Below are positions 10,895 to 48,941 of a DNA stretch of 64,000 bases, piece after piece. The stretch covers positions 33,301,094 to 33,365,093 of the forward strand of contig OY979716.1 of assembly GCA_963855995.1 (NCBI GenBank), in the 5' to 3' direction. Positions within the stretch are counted from its first letter, which is position 1; each line of letters starts with the position of its first letter. The DNA comes from Muricea muricata. Lineage: Eukaryota > Cnidaria > Anthozoa > Malacalcyonacea > Plexauridae. Both the position numbers and the translations under genes were made by a program. The notes below the pieces were generated by a model. The model was not told the DNA's origin. It did no database searches and saw nothing but the letters and a program-made list of their open reading frames with translations.

Positions 10895-13800
10895 TGGGGG
10901 CATTGAACAGCATGTGTCTAGTTTGGGACAGTTTCCTGATTAGGTGCACCTTGATCAACACCCCTCTTTGAGAAGACAACTAGGTAATGTTCACTAGCCA
11001 TTAGTTGTTAATCAATTGAACTCCCTTTTTGTTAAACAGCATGAAAGAATATGGTAGTAGCCCAGCAAAAAGGCTTCGACTGACGAACAGCACGGCTCAA
11101 TTTTCCGAAATAGATCGTCCATTTTCAGAATCAACAGCTGCACGTCAAGAAATCGGTGAATTTGGTGAAAGTTGTGAAAAGGATCAGAGGTGCATAAATG
11201 ATGAGCAAACATGGACTCTTAATATCGAGAACTGCTTCTTGCCTGGCTCAGCGGACTCGCCACTCTGCCCAAAAGAGCTACTTTCATTCAAAACATATAC
11301 ATTCACTATGCTCATTCACTATTTTCTATTGCTCGATATGAGCCAATCGTTCTTATCATTTTCAAAATATGTGGTGTACAGTTTGCTGCTTCCTCGATCC
11401 GTCGATTTTCCCTAGAGTTTCAAAAAAAACGAGTTAAAGTCAGGTGTTGGAAAATTCGATGGCGAAGTTCGATGGGTTCATTTCAAGAACAAGATAGAAA
11501 CATTCACGTCCATTTGTGCCCACGATTTAGAGACTGCTCTTAGCAACCCAGCTGGCATACCGGAACATGCCATATTTCAACTCAGTGAAAAATTAAGAGA
11601 AATCTGCAATGCAGAAATTAAAGACATCGGGGATATACCTGTGACCATCGGATGTAATTTTCCTATTCAGTTCAATACGACAGTCAAGTCACACTTATCA
11701 TCAACCTGGGTACCATGGTTCGACCCCAAGACAAGTACAATCCACGTTTATTGTTTCGAAGAATTCCCAGGATACGCCAACAAAAAAGTAAAAATATCCA
11801 GTACATTTGAATGGAGATTTTTTACTGAGAGAATGGAGAGGCAAAAATCAAATTGTCTTGCATTTGAAAAGATCCCAAATAAAATTGAAAACATTAAAAC
11901 GTTAGTAGATTTACTTGGGATTATTGACGATCACAACCTATGCAAAGGATGTGAAGGATCAAAGCAACTGGAAATGTTGGAGAAGGAAAGAGACGGCAAC
12001 ATTTATAAAACAAAGGACGGTAGGGATGCCGTTGCGAAAGAAAATGAAACGTTTCGTTCTGCAGATTTCAATATTTTAGTAGCTAAAGGATGTATGGAAT
12101 TTCAAGCCTGCAAGAAGTGCCAACGTTATATACGAACTTTGATCTCGCGAAAAAACCATCAACATGATAAACTCTTGGCGAATGAAAGACTAGATTACAA
12201 GACAAAAGATGAGCTTTTGCTAATTGCACGGGAGTCAGCAGCGACAATAAAGAAACTACAGACCAAAAACAAAAGGTTAGAAACGGCTATGGAGGATATG
12301 ATCGAACTTGGACCTAAATCGAACAGCATTCTTCAACAAATATTTAATGACCTGTACACTGGCCTGAAAGAAATAAAGAGAAGAGCCTAAATCCGGTTTG
12401 TCTCTAGAAGAACTGTACATCACCTCAATACGAAAACGTTGAAGAACTACTTCGTCACTGTAAAACTCACATCGAGCATGTAAATACAACCGTCGTTCCT
12501 CCCATTGACAGATCCTACCATTGTGTGTGGCAAGGTTGTACAAAAAGTTACTCAAAATTATAACTTTTGGAAAATCATACTGGCAGTCTGAACGACGAAT
12601 TCTTAGAAACGCTACTGTCAGATCAGGGTAAGGTAATGACGACAAACGCCAAGCAAATGAGATGGCACCCACTTGTTATAAAGTGGTACCTTCGAATATG
12701 TATCAAGTCACATAGCTTATATGAGGATTTAAGAAATTCCGGGGGATTGAAGTTGTCGACTGGACGAACATCATCGGACTACAAGAACTTCAACAACACA
12801 GGTTCCGGCTGGCAAATTGAGAACATAAACAACATGAGAAAGCAGTTTGAAAAAATGAAGCCTCCCAAGCATGGCACACTCGGTCTACTCGTCTTTGATG
12901 AAGTTAAAATTAACGAAGGCTTGTTTTTGACCATAAAAATTGGGAACTGGTTGGTTTTACAGACTTACTTGATGATGAATTTCATGGAAAGAATGGAAAA
13001 GCCAGTACCATTAAACCAACCAACAAACTTGCTACGCACGTCTTGCAATTTTTTTTCAGAAGTTTATTTTTGAAGTTCGACTACCAATGCGCCTTCTTCC
13101 TGACGGGAAACCTTACTTCTTTACAACTCAATAGAATGTTCTGGCTAGGAGCAGCATGCTCCACATGTTCGAGTTTGACATCCTCGTCTCTTGCTCTGAT
13201 GGAGCATCTTGTAACAGATCGCTTATCGAAATCAATGTCACGGATGGCAAAAGTTACTGTCAAAACATTTTTTCCGGAATGCCACTCTTTTTCCTATCTG
13301 ACCCTCCGCATCTTATCAAGAAGTTACGAAATAACCTACACAGCAGTGGGCTAAAGGAAAAACATAGTCGTTTCGCTCGAACTTTGCTTCTTCGCGGTAA
13401 ATATATTCTCTGGGATCATGTCTGCTTAGTTTATGTGAGAGAGCAGCAAAGACATCGCACGTTCAAATCGACAGAATGAGCAAAATGCGAGTGAAATTGG
13501 CTGTCCAAACGTTGTCTTCAAAAGTAGCGAATGAAATGAAGGCATGTCAAGCAGAAGATACAGAGGAGACCAGGCAATATATCAAGATTTGCGAGAAATT
13601 CTGGAATGTGTTCGATGATCCCAGGCCTTTAAAAACAATCGAAGACAACAGAAAAACTGAGCTGGATGCTGTGGTGACATATTTCGAAGACTGGAGAATG
13701 TGGTTAGCAACCCAAAACCGCACAAAAGCTCAGCAGTCAGAGCATTATATATCTTGGCAAACCAAACTTGATCTTGAGGTACAGTATGTACAAGAAAGGG

Positions 13801-14547
13801 CGATTCCACAGCGGCAAAATTCGTCGCAAGAAACTGTTGAATATGTGAAATATGGATGGTTGCACATTAATGAGTTTTTGGTATTCTTCTACCAGTATTT
13901 TTTTCGCTTTTGTGGTGACTAGAACTGACTTCTACTCACTGGTGAAGCCAATATTCTTCTCATCGAGAAAAAATTTAATGGATTATTCATGCGCAACTAA
14001 CCGTATTTCGCTTACACGAGTTCTTTCTACGAAGTCGAAGAATTTCGCCTTCATGGAATCAGACAATCAGTTAGTGCAAGAGTAACTTTCCCTAACTTTT
14101 AACGTATCCATGCTGCACACTATGTTAAGTTATAACACAGCCGAAAGGTAGACTATGACACAGCCGAAACGTAGAAATTAAATTATAAAATGCTTTCATT
14201 ATTTAGAGTTAAACCTTTGTTGTGCACAGCATTTTATAAAAGATATTCATGTGGTTACCGCCATTTCATAATTTCAGATTACAGTGGGTGCAATAAAGGA
14301 ACTTCTGAAGTTCATGAAAACAGACGGGTTTGTGCGAGAATACAGAGATGAGCTATACCTAAATTTGAAAAGAATTAATCAAGACTTTCTTGAATCGTTT
14401 TTTTCATGTCAACGTCAAATGTGTGGGGGGACACAAAATATCACAGCGTATGTCTACGGGTACAACATCAACAGCACGGCAAGCCTTCGGTCATCACGAT
14501 TGCTGATGAAGAAGCAAACGAATGCATATGAAATCGAGCAGTCCCTG

Positions 14548-17500
14548 CAGTGGCGTAGGAACAGGGGGGGCTGGAGGGGGGGGGCTCGAGCCCCTCCCAA
14601 AATTTTTTAAGGAGGGGCTAAGCCCCTCCAAAAAAATCCGTCCAGCGTGATTTTAATCACGTGAATGTTGTGTTAGATAGTGTGTCAGAATGGTTAGAAT
14701 GTTAGATTGGTTCCCAGATCTCTTACTGTTTTTCGCGTAAACAATGGGGGGTGCCATCGAGGATGCAGGCAAGCTTAGATTTATTTTTTAAAAGACAAAG
14801 ATTAGAAACACAGTCAAAGTCATCCGCTGAAACAAATGAACAAAGTTTTAGCAGCAGCGATGCCAGGGAAAATACTCAAAATAGTGAAGGTGATGAGAGC
14901 GACAGCGGGAGCAAGTAAGTTCATAAATATATATATATTCGTATGTAAAATTTATTGAAATTTTTCACTTTAGTCTACCGTACCCGAGTACATTTAACAA
15001 AAACGATATATAAATATATACGCTTTAGTTATTTCATCACTACACAGTATAACCATCGAAATTTGCATTACTCGGGTATGTAAATCGGGTATGTACCCGA
15101 GTATAAATAAAATGAATTGATACCTGATACTCCGCAATTAGCGTGTTGTTAAATGTGTTGTCCCAAGATTTAAGTCCAAACTATTTTAAAGAAAATCTTA
15201 TCTGCAGTCTGGATGAAAAATATTTACTAAAAATAATATTCAAGGTAAATCATAATTTTGACCTTTTCACCAGCTACAGATTATTTACTGGAGTTTCCAT
15301 TGTTTACATTTTAGAGTATTTACTGTTTGTTTCATATTATTATACAAGCCCATTTTATGGCGGCAGTGTTTCCTTGATTTGTAAAATTGTAGACTAAATA
15401 AGAGTAAGCACATGAGGGTGAATGTAGGTGCTTAAAGGGTTAAATGATTCTTTGACATCCAGTTTAGAGGCTGATGAAGATCACAGAGTTGTCAATGCTA
15501 GCTGTGAGGGCGAATGTTGCAATATACCGCTGGATAAGCCTTACCAAATTTACACTAGTTCCACTCAAAATTGGAAGAGGCAAGGAAAACAGTGGCGTAC
15601 ATTTCAAAAAAGCTGGTTCGAGGACTATACATGGCTTACATATTGTAGTACTCACAATGTAACATACTGTTTCTATTGCCGTAAAGCAAAACTGCAAGGA
15701 TGTCTCACATTTAGTAAGAAAGCTGAAGATGCGTTTATCTCCAAAGGCTTTATAACTGGAAAAAGGCCAAAGAAAAATTCAAAAAATATGAAAAAAGCCA
15801 GTGTCATCAAGAAGCATCTATGAAGTATGTTGCTTCAAAGACGCCTTCAGTAGTCTCTTTGGTGAATACTGCTGTTAAGGAAGAGCAGAGAAGAAGAAGG
15901 TCTATGCTACTTAAATACATATCTTCTTTGCGTTATCTGACACGGCAAGGTTTGGCTATCCGTGGTCAATCTGATCGAGAAGGAAATCTTCATCAACTTG
16001 TAAAATCTAGGGCTGAAGATGACAATGATCTAGAGCTTCAAGAATGGATAAAGCTTGGTAAATACCAATCTCCAGTAGTGCAGAATGAGCTAATTCAGCT
16101 AATGTGTCTTCAAGTACTGCGTACTATATTAGCTGATATCAGATTAGCATGTTTCGTCTCATAAATTGCTGATGAAACTAGGGATATTAGTGGGAAAGAA
16201 CAGCTGGCAGTATCCCTTCGATGGGTGAATGACTCTTATGAAGTAAATGAGGATCTGATTGGTTTAGTAGATGTGGAAAAGACAGATGGTGCGACACTAA
16301 AGTCTGTAATCAAGGATGTTCTAACCCGTTGTAGCATTTCAATTAACAGTTGTCATGGACAAGCATATGACGGAGCCTCTAATATGGCAGGACATCTGAA
16401 TGGACTTGCCAGCCAAATTTGAAGAGAGGAACCAAAGGCTTTATTTGTACACTGTTTGGCTCATTCTGTCAACCTTTGCCTTCAAGACTGCGCAAAACCA
16501 AGCAGGCCTGTTCGGGATGCTCTTGCTCTGGTGAAGGAATTGTACAACCTCATTCAATTATCACCTAAACGCCTTGCCTGGTTTAATCGACTTACAGATG
16601 AACTGGCTCCCCAAAATCCTACACTGAAACCTCTGTGCCCCACAAGGTGGGCTGTCATAACAGCAGCTATTGATGCCGTTTTAAAAAATTATGCGTTATT
16701 GTACCCGGAATTGGAGAAAATTAATGAAGACTCCAGTGGAGAAGGATCAACCAAAGCAGCTGGACTGCTTCCACTCATGGAAAAATTCAGCACATATTTT
16801 GGTCTCAAGCTGTCATATTTAGCTTTTGTTGCAACAGAGCAACTGGCTATCACACTTCAAGGAAAAGATGTTAATGCACAAGTGAGCACTTCAGCAGTAA
16901 ATGCAACCAAAAGCTTTCTCCAAAGGCAGAGAAGTACAGAGAGTTTTAATACTTTCTACCAGTCTGCAGTTGTAGAGTCCCAGAGTCAAAAACTAACTTC
17001 GGAATCGGTACTTTCACGGCAAAGTAGTCAATATCAATCTGTAGAGGCGTATTTTAGACGGCAGTACTTTGAAGTTCTTGACATTCTTAACAATGAACTA
17101 GAGCGCAGATTTGACCAAGAAAGTCTAAAGCTGCTGATCGAAATTGAAAGGCTTTTGGTCGATGCATGCAATGGAAATGCTGGGCAACCATCTCGTACAC
17201 TTCAAGAACTGTATAAATCAGAAATTGATTTTAAGCGTTTAGAGGCACAACTCGCAATGTTGCCAGATTTAGTGAAAACCGTGAACCTACAAAGCGTAAG
17301 CCAAGGTCAAGTGGTAATTAGACAGGTGACAGCAATCAGCACAGTTTGCGATATAATGAACAGTTCTTCCTTTGGCAAATCTATGTTTAGTGAAGTTTAT
17401 GAACTTCTACGCATTTATCTGACGGTGCCCATGACATCTGCATCTGCAGAACGCACATTTTCCACACTAAGAAGACTAAAAACTTATCTTCGTGCTACCA

Positions 17501-18336
17501 TGTCACAAAACCGTCCCAATCATATTATCATATTGCACACGCATAAAAGTTACACTGATAATCTTAATATTACTGACATTGCACGAGAATTTGTCGCTTG
17601 CAACGAGCGTCGTCAATCATTCTTTGGTTCATATTAAATTACTCAACTGAGAAACGGAAATGTCCATTGCACATTTTATCTTTCACTCGTTTAAGTCGTA
17701 TTTAGTCGTTTGTAATCATTGTTTTGTTACACGATATTCTAAATAATGGTATATCTTATGCAGTTATGCTACAGTTTTATATATATAATGGACTCATGGT
17801 ATAATCATCATTATCGTGCTGTTTTTATTTTTTTTCTACCAAATTAATGAAATCTACCAACCTACAAAACATACTTAAATAATTTAGAGCAATTTAGAGC
17901 CTAAAAAATTACATTTTTCCCTGGAAGAATACACCAAGATTAACCAGATAGTTTCACAATTTCTCTGTTCTCGTGTCAATATCTAATTACTTTGTTGTAG
18001 GACCCATAAAATCAGTATTTGACTTCAATAAGCATTTAGTATAGATATCAGAAATTCCTATTCACTAATCAATATCCAAACTTCAACTGATGCATTTTTT
18101 CTTGAAATAGTTATACATTATTCACATTTTTTGTAAAAAATGTGCCAAATTTAGTTCATTTTTGCAATCAAAATAAACTCCGAATTAAGTGCCCAAATGG
18201 CCGGAAATGGCATTTCCGAGGTTCTAGTTTTCAAAATTTCCCGGGGGAGGATGCCCCCGGACCCCTCTACAGAGCTCTCGCCTTCGGCGCTCGTATGTTC
18301 AGCCCCCCCAACTTTTAAATCGTTCCTACGCCTCTG
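14548..18336 (+). mobile_element. hAT element (3.8 kb) with ZMYM-type transposase
   Basis: The termini CAGTGGCGTAGGAAC and GTTCCTACGCCTCTG are inverted repeats with one mismatch. The flanking 8-mers are AGTCCCTG (14540-14547) and AGTCCCTC (18337-18344), an 8-bp target duplication with one mismatch. The element sits inside the last exon of the P-like pseudogene, whose frame continues after it. G-rich and C-rich sub-terminal blocks lie just inside both ends. The 3' non-coding part (17638-18336) has no ORF of note. Confidence 0.93.
14763..17637 (+). pseudogene. hAT transposase (TTF-type zinc finger plus hAT dimerisation domain), disrupted
   Basis: Exon 1 (14763-14914) starts at ATG and encodes about 50 polar residues, ending AA|GTAAGT. 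Exon 2 begins at 15463 after ACATCCAG and keeps phase. It encodes a TTF-type finger (WRTFQKSWFEDYTWL, then CFYCR, about 15595-15685), an LRYLTRQGLAIRG stretch, the catalytic-region phrases CHGQAYDGASNMAG (16350) and FVHCLAHSVNLCL (16445), and the C-terminal hAT motif SASAERTFSTLRRLKTYLR (17440-17495). Damage consists of one frameshift near 15750 and in-frame stops TAA at 16162-16164 and TGA at 16420-16422. The rest is a full-length family member of roughly 740 codons, so the element probably stopped moving fairly recently. The TAA at 17635-17637 is the natural end. Confidence 0.88.
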
Positions 18337-19577: not shown

Positions 19578-20980
19578 CTTGTCAGGATATACAATATTCC
19601 AGTCTTTGCCATGAAAATGATGGTTTAATAGCATTTCAATTTGACATTTCTTACTCTTGCCACTTTTTCCAGGTAATCCAAGAGATATTAGAATAGCACA
19701 GAGTTCCTTCCCGTGAAATTTGTTGAGGACATTAGGTGCTGTTTCGGGATTTGTGAATAAATTGATGAAAAAATTTGTAACTTCTCATGGACTGACTAAC
19801 TTGTTTCTAGAAGTCATAATAAACTCATCATTTTTGTCTCGATTCTCCACAACCACTTCATGTTTTTTACTTTTCACCTTCTTAATTGAATGTCTTGATA
19901 AACAGCTTTCCTTCCTAGCTTTTAGCTGCAATTGCTCCTTTACAAACATAATTAGAACCCGTCGTAGAATTAAAACACAACTTGCTTTGAAGAGCTCATC
20001 ATCTTCTTTCCCAACAACACCATACCATAGTTCACGCAATTGTAAGTCCTCACTTAAAAATTGTATACATTTTTTCAGGATGTCTTTATCTGCATTTGAA
20101 TTCAGTCCTGTCTTAACTAGCCTTTCAAAAGCAAAATCCAAGTATGAGAAAACCTCAGTAACTTGAGGAATAGTACTAAATAAAAATTTTCCTGGTTGCA
20201 CGAGTACATCTTCACCTAGACGTTTAATCAAATCCAGTAAATGTTGCCTGCTCACTTCAACGCGTGTTTCTTTGGTCTTTGATACCTGAATTTGTGTCCA
20301 TGTTGAACCACATCTCTTACTCTTTTCATAACCCAACCAGCATGCTCTTTTATAGATTCATCTTCAATACATGGCGCTAATGACGAAGACGAACACGGTT
20401 CAGAAGAAGTTTGACATAAACTCACTGTTTCGCTGCCATCAGGCTCACCATTTAATCCAGGGGATTCATGTAAAACTAAACAGCTCCAAACGTGTTGGAG
20501 AACATGATGCAAAACTACGTTACCTTCGTCCGATGATGATGATTTTAATCCAGACGAACGCAACAGACCATACCATTTTTCTCTAACAATAGACTGTTAA
20601 AAAAAGATACAAAGTTTGCTTCAAGGCGTTTAGCTTTTATCTTTCAACATTTTATGGTTTGGACATCGTCATAACATTTCAAAAAAGATTTTGACGTATC
20701 CTCCAAAAAAAACAATACGAGTTGCGGCGTTAGTTTCACTTGAACTTAATAATGCTTTAGTAATATTTCACACGCTCACTTGAACTTCTTCGTTCGATGT
20801 TTCCTCTACTTCAGAACTAAGATGAATTCCCTTCAAAATTTGATAAAAATAATCTACACCTTTTGGCGAATATATCCAGTTCAGGTTTGCTGGTACCCTG
20901 ACATTATCTTCTTCTGAAAATGTTTCTTCGTCGTCAATGTCTTCAAAAAATATATTTTCGTTGCTGTTTACGACCGCCAT
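19578..20980 (-). pseudogene. Two-exon repetitive gene with C-terminal SAP-like segment, disrupted
   Basis: Exon 1 (20980-20780) starts MAVVNSNENIFFED, is acidic, and ends at a CAA|GTGAGC donor. Exon 2 starts at 20593 after TTTAACAG and joins in phase 0 (SIVREKWYGLLRSSG). It runs through a serine-rich part, EHAGWVMKRVRDV, then QHLLDLIKRLGEDVLVQPGK and a basic region, and ends with FHGKELCAILISLGLPG, which resembles a SAP-like helix pair. A strong donor (AAG|GTATGT) at 19578 implies further exons. A 1-nt frameshift lies near 20300 and an in-frame TGA at 19785-19787. I recognise it only as a recurrent cnidarian uncharacterised family, probably transposon-borne. Its start lies about 100 bases from the P-element insertion point and is divergent from the gene at 28397. 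Confidence 0.65.
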
Positions 20981-21009
20981 TTTGAATTTATGAAAAAGAT
21001 ATACGGGGG

Positions 21010-21075
21010 GTACCGGCATCACACATCGATCAGGGGCGCCGCAGCCATTTCGCCGCCCGTGTTTTACAGCGCCCT
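21010..21075 (-). repeat. Block shared with 7349-7412
   Basis: On the minus strand this reads GCTGTAAAACACGGGCGGCG, and later GATGTGTGATGC, matching 7349-7412 closely in order and spacing. It lies immediately upstream of the minus-strand gene starting at 20980, so it could be part of that gene family's promoter or an element terminus. Confidence 0.6.
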
Positions 21076-22254
21076 GGCACAAAGGAGAAATATACAGAGA
21101 GTTCACTCAGGGGTAAAAAGTGTGCCAAAATGTCAGCCGACTTCCGGTTTGGCCGCCATGTTGAAAGCAACCAAAACATCAGAAACTAATATGTCGGAAT
21201 ACGAAAGAGACCCACTAAAAGCGCTCTAACTTTTTCTTTTTTGACGCCAAACTCATGATATTTTGAAATGTTATAAAGAAATGGCTGTTCTATGATACAA
21301 TTGTCAAAAAGAGGAGGAGAAGTTAATTTTTTCGTGAAATTTGTTGTTATTTCCTATTGTTATACATCGCCAAATTAATTTGACCTCGGCTCTCGGCGAA
21401 TAACGCCGTTCTCGTTCTCCAACTAGAAGTTAAACAAATAGACATGTGTTGTGTCCTGTCGACCTGAAAGATAAAGTAAAGGATTTCTTGACGTTTGTAA
21501 TTGGCTCAAGTCGCGCGCAGTAGTTTGATACAAAAAGTACTGCGATAATTGCTGGAATATAACTGCTGTCTTACTTTGTTTGTAAACATATATTTGGAGG
21601 ATAATATATCTTTACTTGAAACATCAAATCCTTTGGCTATGGCTTTACGAACTTGGTGCCACAAGGCCTCCAGTGACCTTACCATGACTGTTTATTCATA
21701 TTGGAAAATGCTATAAGATAGACCAATGAACCTATTTACAGAACTGACAATAAAAGACTTTGACTGTCAGAGTCACTTCGAGTCGTTACGAAAATTCTAG
21801 TAGAAACTCGCAATCGTTAGTTTTTAGGATTTTGTTAACTGTTTACTCTACAATAAAGGGAAAATAATCTAAAGATAAAAACTTTTCTGTTACTCAAGTT
21901 AATGTACTATTTGGCATGGTCAAGTGTATTGTTGCTATCATCTTAGTTGTTAAAACTTGTCAGTATTATATCAGGCATTAAACCTGTTTCAGTTGCAACA
22001 AAATCTGGCTTTGATGAAGCAAGTTTTGCACAAAGGAACTAAGTAAATGAAATTGGAGTATAACCTATCCTGGATTGGATACAAAAGATGCAGAGGCCCA
22101 GTGGAAAAACCCGCACATTAATTCGAATAATAGTGCTTGATCTTATTTTACAGACTGTTATATAAATTTTTCTATATATTCAATTTATATTTGTGCAATA
22201 TACATTTAATATTAGTTACCTTTTTATTTTTGGTTGTTTCAAAATGCTGCACAG

Positions 22255-23345
22255 ACTTGTTGACTATTTTGATAAAATCAAATACAATTAGAAACTCCCA
22301 AACCTCAAGAATTTTATTTCTTTATTTTAGTTCTGTCATCCCTAGAGGAAAACTGGTCTTATATCTTTAGAAACTCTTATCCACAAAAATTCGGTATAAC
22401 AATAACAAAAGTACAACAAAAGACAAAAAAATTTGAATGTATTATTTACAAAAAGTGTTCCAAAAAATATGACAACACAATGGTATTTTGAATTCTTTGT
22501 TCTGCGTCTGGACACGCCCTGTCGAGGAAAGTAATTTTGACAAGAGGTAAACACTCTTTCATACACGTGCAAGTGTTTATTGGTAAAATTCATTCATAAA
22601 TAAATTGCTAGTTCAAAGTCTTTGGAGCCACCATTGCAAAAGAAATCAAAAACTAAAACATGGTGTTCAGCTGTGAACTGTTCTAGGAATAAACGTTCTA
22701 ATCCAGAACTCAGTTTTTTTCGATTTCCGTCTGACCCAGCAAGGTACCGTAAGTTGTCTGGTTTGACAAAAATTATATTTTACTTCGCTGTACATGTTCA
22801 GACCTTAAAAATTCCAATAACATATAAGTTCAAAATAATGTACTATAGATCAAAACAATGGGTGAATTTGTGTAGATTGCAGATCTGATGGACAAGACTT
22901 CAAAATATTTGAACAACAATTGTAAATTGTGTTCGAAACACTTCGAAGACTGTATTGTGTTCGAAACACTTCTGCGCAGACTTGTTGACAATTTTGATAA
23001 AATCAAATACAATTAGAATCTGCTAACCCTCAAGTCTTTAATTTCTTTATTTTAGTTCTGTCATCCCTAGAGGAAAACTGGTCTTATATCTTTAGAAACT
23101 CTTATCCACAAAAATTCAGTATAACAATAACAAAAGTACAACAAAAAACAAAAATGATTTTTTACTTCGCCGTATGTACAGACCTTTAAAAATTCCAATA
23201 ACATACAACTATAAGTTCAAAATATTGTACTATAGATCAAAAGAATGGGTGAATTTGTGTAGACGTGCGGATCTGATGGACAAGACTCCAAAATGTTTGA
23301 ACAACAACTGTAAATTGTGTTCGAAACACTTCGAAGATTGTATGT
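22255..23345 (+). repeat. Partial tandem duplication covering the THAP exon 2 region
   Basis: 22255-22430 is repeated at 22978-23153, and 22785-22970 at 23160-23345, both with scattered mismatches. The first unit holds about 350 extra bases including THAP exon 1. The first copy of exon 2 is cut short after the KLCSKHFEDC codons and fuses to the second unit; the second copy is intact. So the second copy of exon 2 is the usable one, and intron 1 has to skip the broken copy. Confidence 0.85.
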
Positions 23346-26300
23346 TTTACAACGCTCTCAGAAACCGTTTAAAATCAGACGCAAAGCCAACTTTGTTCGA
23401 TTTACCAAATCCTCCTCCAACCGTAAGTTCAAAACGAAGACGACTGCAAAGGGAACAAACTTTCACTGGCCCTCCAGGTATAATTCCACTTTTAGACCTT
23501 TAATTATAAAGATCATGAAATAGTTTTGTAACACTTAAAACCCAGACAGCTACGTATTTTTAATCTACTAAGCCAACTTTCAAAAACAACCCATCTTGGT
23601 TTAGAAAAAAAGAAGAAAACGGAAAAGCAAATAGATAATAACGTGGGTCTGGTCAATGAAGAAATTTGTAAGTCTCAGCTTTACGCAGCCCACGCTTTTG
23701 TTCTTGTTAAACAATAGAAACCTTTATTTTCTGATTCTATTATTCACCTTGAATTTCTGAATACATGGAATTGAAATCTGAATGCTTTCATTATCTAGTG
23801 GTAAGCGAGACAAAGAAAGAGGCAACCACCAGTAACGTTGAAGGTCGAAAATCTCTAATATTAATCTAATTTGCCGTTTTTATACTAGAGACGCATAATG
23901 CATCTGGACGCATTATGCGTCCTTCTACATTGTTCCGTTCGTTCGTCTAGTATAAGATTCTAGTTCGTCAGGCAATTTTTCGTTCGTAATTTTTTTCTCG
24001 CTTTTTGCATCAAGGTTTCAGAATAGCCGTATTATTCATCTGTGTGCCGTCTTTATACACACAGACGCATAATACGTCTAGACGAACTATCGTCGATAGT
24101 GCGCCTGTTCAGACGAAGAACCGAACATAGTTCGTCCAGACGAATAATGCGTCTTCTACCCGTCTTTATGGTACAGATGCATAATCAGACGAATAATAAA
24201 TCCTTGCCCAAGTTCGTCCAGACGCATAATGCGTCTCCAGTATAAAAACGGCCATTCTCATCTGACATCTTAAGCGTATGTCAGGGAAGACGTACCCTTT
24301 CAATCTTTCCTCGCGATATTAACGATTATTATTTCAAGCCAGACTTCTAATCGAAAACGTACTCATAACGTAATTGTCGAAAGGGTGATTAAAAGGGGTA
24401 AAAATTAAACTTATACGGCAAATTGAAAAAAGGTAACTTTTTTGTCCAGCAGATAGATTAACATGCGCCTAGAAAGTCCTTCCTAACTTCAATGCTCTGT
24501 CATGATTTTTTAGAGGCTCAAAATGTCGAAACAGATACAATCTTAACATCGACCAGCAGCATGGCATCGACCAGCAGCCAGACAACCGACGAAATTTCGA
24601 GCAACACCCCTAGAAAAATGAAGCAAAAAAGGGTTATAAAGGCCCAAAAACAAAAGATAAAGAGACTAAAAGCAGCCATGGGCAAGGCACCGAAGGGAAA
24701 GGAAGCTCGGAAAGAAAAAGCCTTGGAGGAAGCCTTACAAAAGCTACCAGCAAACCTAGCAAATTTTGTGAGGATGCAAATAAAATTGCACGGGAAAAAG
24801 AAACAAGGTAGAAGGTACTCACCCGAGTTGAAGTCGTTGGCCATATCAATATTCCATGCCAGTGGGAAGGCTTACCGTCTACTTTCAAAGCTATTCATAT
24901 TACCATCGAAATCATCTCTTCATCGATACATTTCAAGAATGCCCGATAAAACCGGTATTTCCCAAGGGTCCTTAAAAATAATAGAGAAGAAGGTCATGCA
25001 AATGAATCCTCAAGAAAAGGAATGCACTTTGTGTATGGATGAGATATCGCTGAAAACAAACTTGTTTTACAGTGTACCTTCCGACAAGATCATCGGTCTG
25101 GAAGACTTTGGAAGTTATCGAACCAACAAAGTGGCGACGTCAGCATTCGTTCTTCTCATCCGCAGCATTTCTGGAAATTGGAAGCAACCACTTGCGTATT
25201 ATTTGGTAAACGGAGGATGTCCGCGTGATGCCATGGAGGATATTGTCAAGGAGGCCATTGACAAGCTTGAATGTATTGGCTTGAACGTGGTAGTGGTAAT
25301 GTCTGACCAGGGATCCAATTTCTATAGCCTTGTCAATCACTTGAAAGTCACTCCTGAGGAACCTTGGTTTATCCACAATGGAAGGAAGATCTTTTTGATG
25401 TTTGATCCACCTCATCTTATAAAAAGCGTAAGAAACAACTTGATGAAGTATACTTTCAGGTTTGGAGAAGATCATGTCGCGTCATGGAAAGATGTTGAAG
25501 CAGTATATGCTAGAGATTCAGCACTGCCTATACGATCGACTCCAAAATTGACCGAAAAACATATAAGACCAAATAATTTTAACAAAATGAAAGTGAAATT
25601 GGCGACGCAAGTCCTCAGTCACACGGTTGCAGCTGCAATTTGCACGTATGTCAGCGTCGGAGCCCTTCCATCATGTGCCATGGGTACAGCTGAGTTCATT
25701 GAAAAGTTTGATTCGATTTTTGATTGTGTTAATAGTTCCACACTTCACTCGACTAAAGTTCTGAAATGTGCCCTTAGCGACCAAACAAAGCATCAAGATT
25801 TCATGAAAGAAGCAATTGATTTCATCAAAGAACTGAAAGTCTTTAATGGAAACGAAGAAGTTACAGGCCGTATCAAGTGCCTCAAAGGATGGGTAATGAC
25901 ACTGAATGCAATACTTCTGATATGGGAACACCTCAGTACAACAAAGGATTTCAAGTTTCTTTTGACAAGACGGCTCAACACTGACCCAATTGAGAACTTC
26001 TTTGGCACTATAAGACAGCAAGGAGGGAACAGTGACAATCCAACGCCATCACAATTCTCCAGTGCCTTCAGGAAACTTTTTTTTAGCTCCTTCCTTACAT
26101 CATCAGAAGGAAATTGTGCTGCTGATTTTGACAAGCTCATTGCAAATTTCGAAACGAAGCCAAAAGCAAAGCCGCTTATTGCCAAGACCAACATGCCTCG
26201 CACACTATACATTGGACCAACTGACTATAGAGATCAATGCAATGTTAACTCTGACATTGTTAAGGACAATGCCACTGCATATGTTGCTGGTTACCTCATC

Positions 26301-26714
26301 CACAAATCTATGAAAATCCACAACTGCTCCACATGTACCAATGCCATCCAATGCAATGACCTGGATGATAACGGGAAGCTGTTTTGTTTCTTCAAGGCTT
26401 TTGATCAAACAGAAAACGCATTTGGGGGTCTTCACGCTCCAACAAGTTCCTTTTTGGACTACATCATGAAGTTGGAAGACGTATTTTACAAAAACTTTTC
26501 GATTTACACAAAGAGTTTGTCTGTTGGTAAAGATATTCTCCTCCTGCTCAACAAAGTACCTGTACCATTTAAATGCTGTGATGAATTTCCACTAGAATTT
26601 ATAAGAAAATTGTTTGCAAGATTGCGGATTTATTACTGCTTGAAATTTGCCAATAGAGAGCTTTCTAGAACAAAAAGGAAGAACAGAAAATACTTGAAGG
26701 TAGCACATCTGTAA
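22612..26714 (+). CDS. THAP-domain P-element-type transposase, spliced, largely intact
   Basis: Predicted exons are ~22612-22743, 23236-23477, 23605-23667, 23799-23843 and 24514-26714; all junctions keep frame and have GT/AG ends. Exons 1-2 encode a THAP zinc finger: C-x4-C (WCSAVNCSRN), FFRFPSDPAR, WVNLCRRADL, C-x2-H (LCSKHFEDC) and the ...PTLFDLP end. THAP is the DNA-binding domain of P transposases and THAP9. Exons 3-4 are short and basic. Exon 5 (about 730 codons) carries an N-terminal coiled, basic region, MDEISLKTNLFY, VVMSDQGSNFYS, DPPHLIKSVRNNL and LNTDPIENFFG, the acidic RNase H-like core. The long exon has no stop or frameshift. No in-frame ATG precedes the finger after the TAA at 22601-22603; an acceptor-like TTGCTAG at 22605-22611 suggests a further 5' exon. 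It may be active or recently active. Confidence 0.85.
23873..24252. mobile_element. MITE in intron 4 of the THAP-transposase gene (380 bp)
   Basis: The ends GCCGTTTTTATACTAGAGAC and GTCTCCAGTATAAAAACGGC are inverted. Inside, palindromic GACGCATAATGCGTC-type motifs and terminal-like CCGTCTTTAT phrases recur several times, suggesting internal duplication or nesting of related copies. It starts about 30 bases after the exon 4 donor. The target duplication is unclear, possibly ATT. Confidence 0.85.
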
Positions 26715-26879
26715 CAATATACACTGGACAATATGCTGTGCTGGTGATCACATGCATATGAAATTATGATGATGATGTTGTTTGCTATTAAATAAATCTA
26801 TGCCAGGCAAGCTGAAAAACACCCAACAGGCTGTATATGGATTGCTGATAAGTAATAATGTCCTATAAAGGTTGAATCT

Positions 26880-27740
26880 GATCCTTGGGCCTATCTTGTT
26901 TAGCTTATATATGATTTGCCTACTGTTTTACTCAAAAATTAACCAAGGTCAAAATATGACATTTGAATGGTGTTTTATCAACTATATGCTCATCAACCTT
27001 ACTACGACAAAGTTAACCATGGTACCTCAACATGTTTGAAAGTTACCCCAAAAGACATTCATTTACTTCAATACCATACAATTTACACCTCATCAAATGC
27101 GAAAGACCTTGGTTGCTTGGTAGGAACAATAGACACAAATCTGAACTACATATATCAATCATGATGGAGCATACTGTCATTTTATCAATAATCGAAATCC
27201 TAAATTGCTTGGTGTTCAGTGAACTACATTCATTTACTGTTCTTCTGTTTGGGTGACAACATCAAGAACAATTTGTTGGAAGCTCCAGTGTGTTAAAAAT
27301 GTTCCTGCTAGGACAGTGACAGGAACAAAAAAGTTTGAACATGTTACTCCCATTTTACAAGACCTAAAACATGAATCTAGGTTTTCATATCTCTGAGGAT
27401 GGTTCTGAAATTACAATGCTTTATGACATTTAAATGTGTAAACAAATTACTGGTCATACTGAAATAGCTCCCAGTTGCAGTGGAACTCTGTATTAGGGAT
27501 GCTATTATGTAAATTAATTAAGTTTGTGTAAAAAAATTACTGGTCATATAACCAGACACTCAAATATGACTTTCAGACACCTAACTGTAAAATTACAGCT
27601 GGGAAGAAGTTCTTTAACTATTGCCCTGTATCAATTTGGAATTCACTCTGTGTTTCTGTCCAACAAACAAACGATTATCATCTATTAAACATTATCTGAA
27701 GAAACAATTTTTTGTATGTTAATAAATATGTATATAGTAC
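26880..27740 (+). mobile_element. Decayed non-LTR retrotransposon (RT 3' half) in the P-element 3' region
   Basis: Weak but ordered signatures of a CR1/L2-like reverse transcriptase occur in different frames: LILGPILFSLYM (about 26886), SSNAKDLGC...TNLN (about 27090), LQCVKNVPARTVTGTKKFEH (about 27285) and FFNYCPVSIWNSL (about 27612). The order matches a normal ORF2 C-terminal half. Many stops and shifts are present, so it is old. 27741-28260 has no recognisable gene. Confidence 0.65.
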
Positions 27741-28396
27741 CTAGATTGCATTGTAATTATAATTATATTTCTTTTGAACATTGAGCATTGCATGTATAGC
27801 ATAACAATATAATCCTTGTATAGAAATCATTTGTAAATGCGTTATGAAAAGCTGATGTTGTTACCACAAAAATGTTTGTACATATTGCAGACTGCCTAGT
27901 ATACATGCAGCCGAGTGCACAAGTCAATAATTATATAAATTCAGGCTGAATTTCCGCCTGAATTTTTTCAAAACAAGAATTGACCAACTTTTGTTCAAGC
28001 TCATTCGTATCACACTTACAATTCAAAGTACATTTAGCAAATGACATATTATATCTATCGAGTAACCTACGGATTTTGCGGGTCTCAAAACAGCAAATAG
28101 ACAATGCGTTTAAATAAAATTTTAGCGTCATTAACAACGCTTATATTGTAATAAAATGAATAATCTACCTCTCTTTAGCACGTCCTGAAAATTTCAATGG
28201 CATGCAATGTAAAATAACGACGATATACTCATTTAAAGTCATGAGATATAAGTTCAGCCCATATTAGTTTCTGGTGTTTTGGTTGCTTTCAACATGGCGG
28301 CCAAGATACCGGAAGTTAAATGCGCGGCACAAAAACTTCAAAGGTTCCGACGTAAGTGAACTCTCTGTATATTTCTCCTTTGTGGCCCTGGCTTGA

Positions 28397-31300
28397 ACGA
28401 CGATGATGACGATGATAATTTTCTTCGTCCGCTAGAACCTGGCCCATCTTTTAAAATTCACGGTGGGAAAAGACGTGGTTCAGGTAGAAAGCGCAAACAC
28501 GAGGAAGGTTATGACAAGGCACGCGCTGCCTTGTGAAAAACGATTTCGCTGCACAAGGATGTTTACAACGAATGGATACATTTCCGATCCTCAATCAACA
28601 TTAAAGATAATTCGGAGTTTGCCAGATATCTTTTACAGTGCGTACAACCGGCCAGCCTGAATTATCCACTGTCTTGGACAGAACAGAACAGCCTGGTGGT
28701 GGCAATGAACGTGAAAGGTATTTGGTTTGCTTTTATAACTAGTAGCTTGCACAGCTATGGATTCCATATCACTCTTTTTTCTTGTTTTAGGATTAATACT
28801 CCTGTTTCAACACCTGGCTTTCCTCGAGCAAGATCGACACCAAGAAATTCCAAAACCAGATCACGACTCTTTAGTTCAGGTATTTATTGACTAAAGATAT
28901 AGCTTGACTGAAAAGCTTAGAAAGTGTGACATAAAAACAGCAACAATGTTTAACCAAGTGGTTTTGCAAAAAAAAACTTTCAAGACTGATGGCTATGTGT
29001 AATAGGAATAAACTAGTTTGGTTCTACTATGTATAAAATTAATGCTAATAATTCCTATTCTATATATTTTAGATTTACAATTTCAGAACCATCCTCAGAG
29101 ATATGAAAAACTAGTTTCATATTAATCTAAGATTAATATGAATCTAGTTTTTTTTAGATTTACAAGGTTCTTCACGTGAAATAGAGCATCTTTCATTACC
29201 TGTTCATGAAAAAGTCTTTATCGACTCAGTCAATAGAAATACATCGATTGCAGCAGTAATTTCTAGTGCAAACAATAGCGATAATGATAGTGATCCCGTA
29301 GATGACAACCCTGGTAATGAAAGTGGTGATGATGTTGATTTTGAATCAAATGCTAGCACTGAAAGTCATAATGATGATAATAGTGCTCATGCTCGAGAAT
29401 ATATACAAGAATTTGATCATCTTGAGATTTTATATGCAAAATAATTTCTTGATCATGACCAAGTGACAATGGAAAGAACACAAATTGATCCAGATGATAT
29501 GGAGATCAGTTCATCTGATAACATTGGTACTATTGAATGCAATGTGCCTGTAACAATTCAGGAAAATTCTGATTTGGTAGATGGAAGCAATCCCCTGACT
29601 AGACTTCTTCCTGCTGGATATGAAAATAAAAGAGCTGAAGGTGTTTAAGACCAAGTGTCTTTGGCAAACGAGAAGAAATTCATGTGTAGCATAGAAAAAA
29701 TATGGGAATTGTTTTCATTCTGCATGGACATTGACTGTCGAATGCCATTAGTCGAGGTTAAGGAAAATTTTGTTGGAAGTGCGTTGGAGATAAGACGGAA
29801 ATCTCTAGCAGGTGATTTGGGTGAATGGCAGTCAAGCAAGCGTGTGGGGAGCTTATATGTGAATAATATACAGACTGCAGCTGCCTTTTTATTCACTGGT
29901 AATAACTTTACTAAGCTTTCTCTTTTTTCCAAATGCCTGTCTTTAGCTTTCTTCAGTCCTCAAGCTTTCTACCAGAACCAGAGAAAATATTTAGTTCCCT
30001 CAGTTCATCTGTGTGGAATGATATGCAAGTGCGAATGTTTTCTGCTATTGCAACAAAGCCTGTTGTAGTGGCTAGGGATGGGCAAATGGACTCCCCAGGA
30101 TTCTCAGCCAAGAATTGTACATACACCTTAATGCATGCTCATCTGGATTATGTACTTCATGTGGAGCTTGTGGATGTGCGGAATTCACAGTTGCAAAGTT
30201 CTGTTGTGGAGAAGGTTGGGTGTGGAAGAGCATTGGATTTCGTAATGAAGAAACTTGTCATTGAAGAGCTTGTTACAGATTCATCATCTCAACTGATTAA
30301 AATGTTGGGTAAGTATTAAAGATGTTCTTAATCTAGCACATGAAAATTTGTAAACCTTCCTAAATGTACCATGGACATTAAGATTCTGATTGGTTATGGG
30401 CCGGAGTGTGTTTCCAGTTAATAATAGGTTGCTACCAGAATCTATTTTTAACCTTAATATTGACATTAACTAATTTTCTACCTTACAATGAAGAACTGGT
30501 ACTGGAGATAAATTTTTAAATAGTATTTTTCAATTTATGTATTTTAGCAACGAATAAGAAATATAAAAATATATTTCACCAGCTAGATGTGTGGCATAAA
30601 AGTAACAAGCTGGACAAAAAGTTGTTGGAGGTTTGCACATTTTTTATTTTTCTGTAGTTTATTTTATTAGCCTCTACATAATAAAATGTAAATGTTTTCT
30701 ATGGAAGCTTTCTACAGTAAGTAACAGACCAAGTGGTGCTGTGAAAATCCCAATACCTGACAGCAAAGCGATTACTTTTCCAGGCATGTAAGAAATTAAA
30801 GAATAAGGTGCTGGGAGAATGGGTGGCACCAACTAGGAATCATTTCTGGCATTGTGTAAAGAACTGTGGTGGCAATCTAGACAAATGAAGGTGAGGATGA
30901 AATGTGTATTGGAAACATACTTTATATTTAAATTACAATAAGTAAAAGTGTATGGGTGGATTGTGGATGATATCCTGTGCTTTGAATCCTTGTATTCGTC
31001 AGAACATATGCTTGCCTGCCTGTGCTGTAGGTTATACCAGTCCTGTCTGTATGTTTTTTGTAGACTGACTGGATTAACGTCTTGAAACATGTTACCAATG
31101 TTCACACATGGTATAATAGCTAATGCTCACGTGGTCCTTTAGATGAAGTTGGAAATAGAAAATGGATTGAACCAGACTCTGGAGCAATGCAAGCCCTTCG
31201 TGATATTTTAGTATGTTTATATAGATATGAGGGTTTGCTTGCTCGCAGCCTTCTTGCAGCTATCGACCACAACCATCATCTCCAACGAAAACAACCACAA

Positions 31301-37479: not shown

Positions 37480-40400
37480 TTAGTACGGTTTTTACATTAT
37501 TGCATGTAATTATTTACTATGGCGCGGACGGTCGTGTGGGAGAGAACTCTGATAATATTTTCAGTAGAGAAAGCGATTGTTTTGATTTTAACAAAATAAA
37601 TTTGTACATAACGTCCAAGAGTATTGCCTACGATGGAAAAAGGTTGAAATGGTGCGATAAATTTGAGTCATTAAAAGAATTTATAGATGGTCGGTGGGAG
37701 GCAGCTCAAAAGAGTTTGATACTTCCTCATCTGAGTTTGTACACTCTAAAAAAAGGTGTGTTAATTTAACACACCTTTTTGTCCAAATTTTAACACACCT
37801 CAAGGTGGGTTTTAAAACACGCCTTAAGGTGTGTTTAACACACCCTAAGTTGGGTTTTACAACACACCTTAAGGTGTGTTTAACACACGTTAAGGTGTGT
37901 TAAACACACCTTTAGGTGTGTTACAAAACGCACCTTAAGGTGTGTTTTCTGCTTGTCCAAATTTTAACACACCTTAAGGTGGGTTTTGTATAAAGGTGTG
38001 TTTTCTAGCACACCTTGGAGCGTTTTCTAACACACCTCAGTGTGTTTTCTAGCACACCATGGTGCGTTTTCAAACACACCTTGGTGGGTTTTGTTACACA
38101 CCTAGAAAGTGCTTTACATCACACCTTCACAGAAGGTGTGTAATATAACACACCAATAGACATGCTTTTTTACACACCTTTTGAAAAGCACATGATTAAG
38201 TTTTACCTGAAGAAAACACACTATATATAGTTATATAAGTACGGATACATGAACTTGTTGAGAATGTATCATCCTTTAACTGGTAAATTCATAAATGACA
38301 CTTTTAATTTCTATTGTATCAGACTAATAACACAAGTTACAGAATATACACAGCACATGCAGTTAGGAAATATATAATAATCACTCAGTCATCAACCTCA
38401 ATAAGCATTCTCACTGCAGTTCAAAACAATTTCATAAAAAATAAACAGCACCACAATCATACTGTGAGGATAGGACTTGGCAAAGACATATAATACTAAG
38501 ATCATATCTATCAGAGTACTGACAAGGCCAGTTTTCATACAGTTAGATGCATCTGAGTTTAAGTTTATTTTTTAACAAAAAAGAAATTGGTTAAAACAGC
38601 CAAGGAATAAATGGTCCACAAAGTAAATTTTTTTGTTGTTGTCGCTCTAAATTGTTGTTTTTGGCTGTGTTAACCAACAAATTTATGAATAATTCAACCA
38701 ATTAGTTTTCTGGTTGTGTCACAGACATGTATATCAACCATTCAATGGTCTTGGGTACAGTTAGTATGTTTATTACATATATCAATAGGTAATCACTACA
38801 TAATTACTAATTAGTGCAGAGTTCAAAATTTTCATTGTCACACATTTTCAAATAACATGTTCGAATGCTATTAAACTGCTTACTGGAGTTACTGGTCTGG
38901 AATCCCATATTTTCCAAGGTTGAATCATCAATCAAAATATCTTTCATCTAATTGTTGAAGCCTTGCAGCACTTGATTTAACTCTTTTAAGCCAAGCCTTG
39001 CTTCATTTGCTTTGACTTCGCATGCAAGTTTACCCAAAGCTGTTTCCAGGCAGTTATATGCATGCAATGCAAATTTTGTAGGTCTATAATAAGATAAGTC
39101 ATATATTAAGATAAGTATTATATCTTACATGACAAGGTATAACTTAGGCATTCAATGCAATAATACTGTACATGAGGTTATCATAAATCACCCTTCTATG
39201 CAAAATATTCTATTATTTGATTTGACAAAAAAACAATGCATTAAAGAAGTATCAGCACTCTTCCTAGTACATTTATCAGAAATGAATAATAAAATAGCAA
39301 AGTTTATAATTTTACATTTAATTCAACAGATTTACTAGTAGCACTTTTTCATTGATGAATGGAATTGTTTGGTGTCAAGCAAATTGACATTATAAAATCA
39401 AGTACTGTATTAAGACACTAAGTGTGGAAAAAACATTATGGCATAAAGGTTTATTGTTCAACACAAGATGCTCTGCCTCTGAAAGAGCAGTGAGGCTAAT
39501 TCATGGTAAATTAGGGCAATTTGATATGTAATTTTAGACATTTGCACCTTCTCCCCTAAAACTAATTTAATTTCCTTTACCAACAATTTCAATGTCACCC
39601 AATATTTTATCATTATCATGAATTAAACACTATTTCTTTTCTCCCAGTTATACAGCAAGTTTGATTAGAGGGGCAGGAAGTCTTTATTCGAACGACACAA
39701 ATCTAAGCAGTATGGTGTCAAACATGTTCAGTGTTAAGAATTCTTCAGTACCGGTAATAGGATGTTGACAGTAGGCCAATTAGTATCTTTGACTTTACAC
39801 ATCACAGTACTTACAGGCATTTATGCTTGTAATAATAGGTGATATAAGGTTAAAGATGTAATTCTAATATTTTGTTGAGAAGCATTCCAATAGTTGGCCA
39901 CATTAAAGCCAAGTCATCAATGCAACCAAAATGTTTTTTGAGTAGACTTTTACATGACTATGTAGTTTCAACTGGATAGCCACAAACTTTTTTACTGGAG
40001 CATATTAATGCAGCATAACAAATCTTACAATGAAACAGTTTGAGCAATAATGAAATTGTTTGAACTATGAAAGTTTTAAGTACTTATATTTTTGTAAGTA
40101 AATAAATGTTAAAAACTCAACAATGTAGAAAGTGGTTAAAGGTCATTAAGTTTCCTTGCTTAGATGATCAGTCAGCCATTGAGTCTGGCTTCAAGCCTTT
40201 ATGACCACATCATATAAACATGACCCCATCAGGCAATCAAGGCAAGAGACACTATTAAAACCTTGCCAGTCCAAAAAAACAGGTTAACAGAATTGAGCTA
40301 AATGCTATGCATCAAGAAAAATAAAGTAAATGAATTTAAATCTATCTATTTCCAAATACTATCGCGCGAAATTCAAATTTTAAATGCCACACGATTCTAT

Positions 40401-43130
40401 TAAAATTATAAACGATGGAAGGAAGTAAATATTACAAGTTAAATTTGCTTTACCATACAAAAATCAAAACAATGTGCTTACCTGACTTTTACACCTTCCT
40501 TTGTGATGTATTGGGAGCCATTTATTTGATAATATTGGTTAAAATACTGTTTCTTTTGCTATAAACATCACCATTTATTAATACAACGTGCAAAAATATG
40601 GATTCCAAGTGTGAAGATTCCCGGTGAGCTTTGCGCGCGTAGTACTGCCACTGATCTCTAGAAACAACTGGATAAAAACCTACTTGCCCGCGGAACGAAA
40701 AATGAAATAGTTTACATTTTTATCGGGTAAGGAAAAAATAAATACATAGCACTATTATATAACTGCTACTGGACAACCGGGCGGCATAGATTTAATGTGT
40801 TGTGAGAGATTTAATCATATTTTGGCTAATGTTTTTAACACATCCAGATTTGAATATCTAAGACTAAGCTCGATATTCTGAGTCACCATGTTAGGATGGA
40901 TAAACTGAAGTTAACACCATGTTAATATGATGATGACAAATTATATATCATTCATATTTACCATATAAAATTCTTCTAACTCTTGCTTCGTATCATACCA
41001 AAAACAAGGTATGCCTTCTAACACACCTAGCTGTGTTTCTCAAACTTGTGCATGGTGTGTTCCAAAACACACCATGGTGTGTTTTCATCGAAAAGGTGTG
41101 TTTTTTAACACAGCTTGTATTTTTCAAAGGTGTGTAATAAAAGATGTGTAAAGGTAGGGTGTGTTTTTGTACACATCTTGGTGCGTTTTCTCACACATAC
41201 TGATGTGTTTTCCAGCACACCTTGGTGTGTTTTCCAACACACCATGGTGTGTTTTCTGATTATAAGTAAAATGGTGTGTTAAAATTACACACCTTTGTGT
41301 GCTATTGTGCACACCTTGGCACACTATTGTGCACACATGTGGCAGCTTAACACACGAAATAACACTCGTAAAAATTGATCTGGAACAAGAGAAGTCTAAA
41401 ATATATATCTAGAATGTGATGTTAAACGCCTCTGGCAAGAAGTTGAGATTATTAATTCATATTGAAATGGTTCACTCAACACTACTAGAAATAGCGACAT
41501 TATTAGCATGACAAACAATTCTGAGGAAATAACAGAAGGGCGTTGTAGAACCAAATCATCCTGTTGCAGCCGTAAAACCACTTGTTGTAGAACAATCAAC
41601 GATTTGGATTGGTGAGACGAGTGACAATCATTCCATAAACAGTGGGTGTTGTGATGACGGATTAGTTTTGGATGAAGTTGGAACAGACAAATCAAATTGT
41701 TAACAAACAATTGACGATTCCTATGGGTAACAGTACGAATGACAATACACTTGCTGAAAACAACAGCGGGCGCTGATGTGAAGTATGATTACCAAGTTAA
41801 GGTCAGTGATCATAGTAAAACATATGCTCAAGTAGCTGCGCTTCAACCACCTCCAAAGAAAACACATCTAATTAATGAAACATTCACTAAAAATACCTCG
41901 AGCAGCAAATTAATGATATAGATGATCAGTTCAAGAGCGGAAAACGGAACAGGACCAAAAAATTATTTCGGTCTGGAATTGCCGAAGACATTATAAAAGA
42001 GAATAACATTTTGGCTTATTCAATGAAAATATAACGGTTTTTCAAAGTCGACGTCCGGGATGCGTTTTTGTTAAAGTAAACATTCCATCTTCAGCCTCTA
42101 AATTAATTGAGAGTGAGAATTTTCGGCAGAAGTATGTCAAATGCATGTGAACCGTGGCGATGAAACCGCGAAAAATACTCAACCTATGTATAATGGCTGC
42201 AGCTACACAACTGTTTGTCATACTCGTGATCACAACTAGTCGCCGACGTAAAAACCAACGGTTTACTATGTCAGCAAACTGCTTGAACAAGAACTATAAG
42301 TGTAAGTATAATTTAAGTAACATTTATTTGAGTAAAATTTATGAACTCAGAAACTTCAAAACACGGGTGCAGGTATCGTTTCGAATAGTCCTAAGGGACT
42401 CGAGGGAGAAAATGAAATCCCCATGTTATGTTCACCAAACAACAGGATATTGAAGCCTAATGACGACACAATCAGAACGAACATTTCAACAATAGCTTCT
42501 CAAAGACGTTTCTCAAAGAAAATTCCGTCAAAACCCGGCAGCTAAACATTTTTTCATTACTGGTAGTAACCTAATAAATGTTCCCCTAAAAGTTACGATC
42601 TCAACTGTAAGCAAAGGTTCATCTGCTAAAGATAAAAAATAGTTTGTACCTAGCCTACTTTTATCAAACGTCGTCTCCTTAGTCCCTAAAATTGACGAAG
42701 CTCGTTTGTTTGTTTCAAAACATAATCCTGACTTTATTTTCATCACAGAAACGTGGCTCAAAGAATCTAGAAAAAACAATCATGTATGTTGAACTGCTGC
42801 GTTATAATATCAGAAGACGAGACCGCACCTCGGCCGAACACGGTGGAGTTTGCTTCTTCTCTAAGATGTGTATTAAGATCAAGCATCTCCAACAATTTGA
42901 AAGTCCTAACCTTGAAGTTCTCTGGATGCAATTAAGACCTTCCCGACTCCCAAGAGGAATCGTAGCTGCAACAATTTACCATCCTATGTTGGAATAATTA
43001 TCCAAATCTTTAACAGATATTGAGCGTTTCCTCCCCGGTTGCGGTATTATCATTGTTGGAGATTTTAACCATTTAAATATCAAGAATTTGTCTCGCCAGT
43101 TGCAACTTAACGTTTACTTTATTATTTAAC
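37480..43130 (+). mobile_element. Degenerate non-LTR retrotransposon (ORF1 plus endonuclease), split by a foldback element
   Basis: 37500-37745 encodes an ORF1 N-terminus of a type I associate with anthozoan retroelements (LYITSKSIAYDGKRLKWC, ESLKEFIDG, then GGSSKEFDTSSSEFV in a shifted frame). Beyond the inserted element ORF1 resumes: a coiled-coil-like ECDVKRLWQEVEIINSY (about 41405), KTYAQVAALQPPPKK (41818), and RPGCVFVKVNIPSSASKLIE (42056). From about 42650 the ORF2 apurinic-type endonuclease appears: PKIDEARLFVSKHNPDFIFI with ITETWL (42685-42762), RRDRTSAEHGGVCFF, LEVLWMQLRPSRLPRG and VGDFNHLNI (about 43059). No reverse transcriptase follows. Multiple stops and shifts are present. The CR1/L2-like clade is inferred. 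Confidence 0.8.
37746..41370. mobile_element. Foldback-like element with arrays of TTAAGGTGTG palindromes (3.6 kb)
   Basis: The two ends (37749-38190 and about 41005-41350) are arrays of short palindromic units, each an ACACACCTT-type half site next to its complement with diverged spacers of about 10-35 bp. The array halves face each other as inverted repeats. The outermost sequences (CACTCTAAAAAAAGGTGTG, and GAGTGTTATTTCGTGTG on the complement) are loosely related. The organisation resembles Drosophila FB elements, with tandem-repeat-rich inverted ends around a non-coding middle. 38190-41000 contains no convincing gene. It interrupts the retroelement ORF1. Confidence 0.7.
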
Positions 43131-48806: not shown

Positions 48807-48941
48807 ATTGAATCAGATTTTTCCAAAAGAATACTCTTCTAGCTTAGTTCGGCAGCCAGACTACAGCTTTCAACAAGAAAACAGTCAATGAAATATAAGA
48901 TTACATACAAGTAAATTTTATAGAACGCCAAGTAATATTTA

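Follow-up and report, generated by a model that had tools for sequence, protein, structure and literature searches.

A full-length, probably recent P-superfamily transposon in Muricea muricata, from a family with mostly 7-bp target site duplications and in a copy that lacks its start codon

Introduction

As far as the cited account of the Drosophila melanogaster P element extends (PMC7776569; transposase structure 6p5a), its transposase combines a THAP domain and an HTH with an RNase H domain that is split by a GTP-binding insertion and carries a DDE triad. The element is 2.9 kb long and has four reading frames, terminal inverted repeats (TIRs) of about 30 bp, inner repeats of 11 bp at unequal distances from the ends, target site duplications (TSDs) of 8 bp, and internally deleted derivatives. 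Galileo, also from Drosophila, has a P-type transposase and TSDs of 7 bp, occasionally 8 bp, and in the parts of its description used here its TIRs are long and internally repetitive (PMC4168063, PMC3573991). The zebrafish Pdre2/THAP9 system lies outside the Diptera; the portion of its description that serves for comparison gives a P-type transposase, 13-bp TIRs, 12-bp subterminal repeats with 400-bp spacers, 8-bp TSDs and internally deleted copies (PMC10983969). The P elements of Anopheles gambiae, within the extent of the source cited, are 4.2–7.5 kb long, with TIRs of 27–31 bp, proteins of 876–895 aa, linked MITE families, 8-bp TSDs and, as a rule, three exons (PMC1562414). A first-pass annotation of the present locus stated that complete P elements have seldom been described outside flies. 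This is fair in part; Pdre2 is a described exception, and the Anopheles elements are described as well, yet mosquitoes are Diptera.

This report concerns an element at positions 21078–28384 (7307 bp) of a 64,000-nucleotide stretch of the M. muricata genome, here called the window (C1:33301094–33365093 of an assembly with 74 contigs and 453 Mb). It belongs to an ordinary kind and is rather complete: a full-length P-superfamily transposon of mostly 7-bp TSDs, probably recent, and disabled at its start codon. With the D. melanogaster element it has in common the domain order of the transposase, the length of the TIRs, the unequal placing of the inner sites and the presence of internally deleted derivatives; it differs in its size (7.3 kb), its 45-bp inner repeats, its five predicted exons, the 7-bp TSDs of most copies examined, and its duplicated decoy exon. 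The TSD lengths are like those of Galileo, but its long repetitive TIRs are replaced by 30 bp and a short subterminal repeat, and the only tandem array in 20500–29000 is short and lies away from the ends. Pdre2 is alike in having TIRs, subterminal repeats and deleted copies, with shorter repeats and a longer TSD, and the Anopheles elements are alike in size, TIRs, protein length and small relatives, with a longer TSD and fewer exons. No description of this P-type family was found in the literature listings searched, and no claim of its absence from print is made.

Element ends and target site

The ends of the element are 30-bp TIRs at 21078–21107 (forward strand) and 28355–28384 (reverse strand), which are exact reverse complements of each other (30/30) and begin CACAAAGG. 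Further inside lie subterminal inverted repeats at 21149–21193 (forward) and 28260–28304 (reverse), 98% complementary over 45 nt. In the window copy the sequences between the TIRs and these blocks are diverged and unequal in length. The imperfect TIRs of about 120 bp in the first-pass annotation, which rightly placed inverted repeats at both ends, are for this reason better read as a TIR, an unlike spacer and a subterminal repeat. Exact inverted matches between the 150-nt ends of the window copy reach a length of 30 nt, compared with a maximum of 13 nt in Markov-resampled controls (n = 500); as the first base compared was 21079, the terminal block contributes 29 nt and the value of 30 belongs to the subterminal block. 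Among 18 copies, the window copy included, the distance from the end to the subterminal core is 73 nt on the left in 17 (72 nt in L026), and on the right it is 82 nt in all 18.

The element is flanked by the identical 7 bp GCCCTGG at 21071–21077 and 28385–28391; 16 of 200,000 random position pairs shared a 7-mer by chance. Over the same 18 copies the TSD is a perfect 7 bp in 13 and a perfect 8 bp in two (L010, L025), while L016, L021 and L026 have no perfect duplication of either length, although L026, judged by eye, would allow an 8-bp duplication with one mismatch. All 13 perfect 7-bp sites follow the pattern N-Y-N-N-N-R-N, with C or T at position 2 and G or A at position 6. For the window copy an 8-bp TSD, GCCCTGGC, was considered and set aside, given that 7 bp is the commonest length and that the element starts with CACAAAGG in 17/18 copies (CACAAGGA in L026); the extra C common to both flanks is read as coincidence on the first of these grounds. 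Since the duplications are predominantly of 7 bp and not of the canonical 8 bp, the element is filed in the P superfamily, not as a canonical P element.

A search for empty sites, proposed in the first-pass annotation, found a paralogous one at C1:33568429–33568727, about 240 kb downstream on the same contig, in which the two flanks are joined around a single GCCCTGG with no element between them (336/350 columns identical to the flanks of the window copy). With GCCCTGG at both ends of the element, this bears out the target duplication noted in the first-pass annotation, given there as 7/8 bp. The left flank (20997–21076) recurs at 30 other scored places and the right flank (28392–28528) at five (40/43 candidates scored). 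The similarity stops at the insertion point or close to it; the element landed where two repeated sequences meet.

The transposase gene and its product

The gene model comprises five predicted exons on the forward strand: exon 1 (22604–22743) with the N-terminal half of the THAP domain, exon 2 (23236–23477, the frame-keeping one of two copies) with its C-terminal half, the small exons 3 (23605–23667) and 4 (23799–23843), and exon 5 (24514–26714) with the HTH, the split RNase H and its GTP-binding insertion, the C-terminus and the stop. Joined, they form a single frame of 897 codons whose only stop is the terminal one, in agreement with the spliced five-exon THAP transposase gene first proposed; exon 5, at 2201 nt, is also close to the uninterrupted catalytic exon of 730 codons given there. 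The GT/AG sites, including those of exons 3 and 4, are kept in three other copies, L009, L010 and L011, for every exon that these possess (L010 lacks exon 1). The junction of exons 1 and 2 was picked by THAP profile score (65.0 bits, against 61.1 and 59.2 bits for two rejected alternatives) and aligns without gaps to THAP2 (2d8r). Under simple splice matrices the model's sites score low (donors 1.4, 0.1, 0.0 and −3.3; acceptors −2.9, −1.0, −0.8 and 0.4), and the sites above the cut-off differ from those of the model with one exception, an acceptor listed at 23478 that abuts the second donor. The last intron contains a palindromic stretch at 23873–24252 with 38-nt arms (92%); this intron can be aligned almost from end to end in L009, L010 and L011.

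The domain content supports the assignment to P-type elements with a THAP transposase made in the first-pass annotation. Pfam matches in the last exon are TNP-like RNase H N (9.3e-34), GBD (7.1e-20), RNase H C (2.3e-11) and P-element HTH (6.2e-6), and the predicted spliced peptide has an N-terminal THAP domain (1.1e-17), which in the window copy is encoded with no start codon before it. With the solved structure of the Drosophila transposase, 6p5a, the last exon aligns at E=1.5e-42. Counted by hand along this alignment, D230, D303 and E531 fall on D, D and E, and D339 of the D(2)H motif, K400 and D444 are matched as well (residue names from the literature). The predicted enzyme thus has the P-type arrangement, in which a GTP-binding domain interrupts an RNase H with DDE and D(2)H motifs. 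K385, N447 and D528 of the Drosophila transposase, which we take to be its GTP contacts, have the same letters in the window element. All of these residues are kept in seven loci of the genome, apart from an A in place of D444 in L060 and a missing part of the L055 piece.

An open frame by itself is weak evidence of selection: in a simulation of neutral decay by substitutions alone, 13% of runs still had an open last exon after 3% change.

The lost start codon

In the window copy exon 1 begins with ATT at 22604–22606 and contains no ATG, whereas ATG stands at this position in all 22 other examined copies that retain the stretch (17 among 20 copies fetched at length and five among 19 further short stretches, in the other 14 of which the region is not seen). 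Met first occurs in this frame at residue 61, within the THAP domain and beyond its first cysteines. On sequence, the window copy is unable to make normal transposase and is probably not autonomous; its intact ends may nevertheless leave it usable as a substrate for transposition. The reading of this copy as a fully autonomous, active element could appeal to the open 897-codon frame, the intact ends and the perfect TSD; set against the missing ATG and the position of the next Met, it is very unlikely, and the earlier suggestion that the element may be active does not hold for self-mobilisation. The ATT might start translation weakly, and it could be an assembly or allele error. An upstream exon supplying an ATG was also sought, giving five weak combinations and none under a stricter cut-off, and was dropped once the sister copies showed an ATG in place; with their ATG at the same position, neither a weak ATT start nor an upstream start exon is needed.

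The duplicated exon 2

Exon 2 lies partly in a duplicated stretch (22766–22955 and 23148–23343). A neighbouring non-coding block is also duplicated, at 22247–22429 (forward strand) and 22972–23154 (94% identical). The duplicates differ by 6–11%. The upstream exon-2 copy is a pseudo-exon at 22849–22955 (forward strand): it retains an acceptor, has lost one base and runs out of frame into a stop. Splicing into this decoy would yield a peptide of 59 residues, in the window copy as in L009. The duplicated decoy exon and its acceptor, as well as the ATT start and the palindrome with 38-nt arms, were absent from the first-pass annotation.

In two other P-type loci of the genome, L055 and L057, a single exon-2 match lies about 85 nt after exon 1. 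The decayed copy of the window element lies 105 nt after it, and it appears from this similar spacing that the upstream copy has been superseded by the downstream one. The frameshift of the decoy is common to the window copy, L009 and L011 (L010 retains only part of the copy). Since the duplicates are 6–11% apart and the window copy and L009 only 0.4%, the element would have moved since the duplication with the decoy inside it.

The shared decoy may lower the yield of full message. It is a further step to regard it as a functional splicing brake, a poison exon that limits transposase with an effect like that of intron-3 retention in the Drosophila P element. The near-identical acceptor contexts at 22849 and 23236, the 59-residue peptide, and a frameshift shared by a lineage that has moved with the decoy in place all fit such a role, but a tolerated scar would look the same, the decoy acceptor scores below the used one (−4.1 vs −2.9 with a crude matrix), and the single exon-2 match in L055 and L057 means that a decoy is not general to the P elements of this genome. 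A brake is on balance unlikely. Slightly less probable again is the wider proposal of a 7-bp-TSD P family in which the decoy of the autonomous lineage holds transposase down, allowing non-autonomous copies to become more numerous than autonomous ones.

Relatives in the genome

Searches with the left and right ends scored 40 of 125 and 40 of 194 candidates, respectively, and 20 relatives were fetched at length out of the 39 other scored left-end matches. The first-pass annotation had staked its reading on the TIRs occurring together elsewhere, and both ends are present in 17 of these 20 copies; the right end was not found in the fetched stretch of L012, L013 and L028. The identical copies that it proposed to look for have a near equivalent in L009, which lies on another contig in a different target (TSD GCTGGGT) and differs from the window copy by substitutions at 28 of 7304 aligned sites and by five small length differences. 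L009 has intact ends, the ATG and an open frame of 895 aa followed by a stop. Two other long copies, L011 (7070 bp, 3.0% different from the window copy) and L010 (5678 bp, 1.6% different), have broken genes, and a lesion near 26081 is common to L010, L048 and L051.

The changes between the window copy and L009 over the exons are 4 synonymous and 9 non-synonymous (3 and 4 in the last exon); they look near neutral and give no clear indication of selection after the two copies separated. On a longer scale, pN/pS between the window exon and those of L056 and L057 is 0.34 and 0.32, with synonymous sites near saturation, which points to long-term selection for the protein. In a protein search (61/914 candidates scored, 71 matches) only the window copy and L009 cover all 732 residues at >95% identity without a stop. 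Other P families of the genome match at 60–64%, about 47% and 28–31% identity, some of them stop-free in the matched stretch, and L056, L057, L060 and L061 represent further P-type families with open catalytic exons of 725–749 aa at 46–62% identity to this element. Relatives sought in viral contigs, in one scan of bacterial and archaeal contigs and in phages were not found.

The commonest relatives are short. Fourteen of the 20 fetched copies are non-autonomous derivatives of about 2.5 kb (2484–3000 bp), composed roughly of 21078–22628 and 27399–28384, and their pairwise difference has a median of 3.6% and a minimum of 0.16%. Filler is present at the deletion junction in three of four copies inspected (L014, L015, L017; L016 has other sequence there), and one filler is an inverted match to the right subterminal region. 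P elements are known to undergo interrupted gap repair after excision, and we infer that the derivatives would have arisen in this way. A near-identical sister in another target, derivatives only 0.16% apart and a related empty site together suggest that the family moved recently.

The same observations bear on whether the locus could be a THAP9-like domesticated host gene that keeps the ends of an old element. Its open transposase frame would suit such a gene, but exact TIRs, a perfect TSD, a related empty site, a second copy that is almost identical but sits in a different target, and the many derivatives that have these ends leave this explanation with hardly any probability.

Other features of the element and the window

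Within the element, the stretch at 26.9–27.7 kb has the look of the end of a decayed non-LTR retrotransposon; three peptides from it are without a Pfam match, and no such end is claimed. Elsewhere in the window, a second P-like transposase at 11300–14200 is decayed and spread over several frames. It has a Pfam GBD match at 13401–13919, a match to 6p5a at E=0.17 only, a SDPPHLIKKLRNN stretch, and upstream pieces that by eye are C2H2-like and not THAP. An open frame at 16423–17637 contains a hAT C-terminal dimerisation domain (E=1.8e-8).

Two pairs of large inverted repeats are also present. The first, 622–2151 and 3192–4721, consists of 1530-nt arms that are 100% complementary around a centre of about 1 kb, with an open frame of 330 aa at 2519–3511 that has no Pfam match; it is either a large foldback element or an assembly palindrome. 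The second, 48935–49496 and 55229–55790, has 562-nt arms that are 95% complementary and 5.7 kb apart, and between them a tRNA-like Rfam match at 54881–54952, where ARAGORN (bacterial code) finds no tRNA. Clusters of repeats of about 22 nt, of the type AACACACCTTAAGGTGTGTTT, occur at 37771–38124 and 41066–41287.

Proposed mode of movement and outlook

Taken as a whole, the locus is with high confidence a cut-and-paste element of the P superfamily, full-length and probably recent, whose window copy lacks a start and would be mobile in trans only, and whose copies of about 2.5 kb are deletion derivatives. By analogy with the Drosophila enzyme, the THAP domain would bind the inner sites, GTP would promote pairing of the two ends, and the DDE triad of the RNase H would cut and join them, a staggered target of 7 bp, sometimes 8 bp, giving rise to the duplication. 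With no start codon of its own, the window copy would be moved solely in trans, by the enzyme of intact relatives, and the deletion derivatives likewise. Its case illustrates that an open catalytic exon is no proof of activity.

Because it offers an open gene in a full-length sister, derivatives that have diverged very little and a related empty site, the family is a natural system for asking how P transposases set the length of the TSD, 7 or 8 bp, and whether a duplicated exon can serve as a transposon's own brake.
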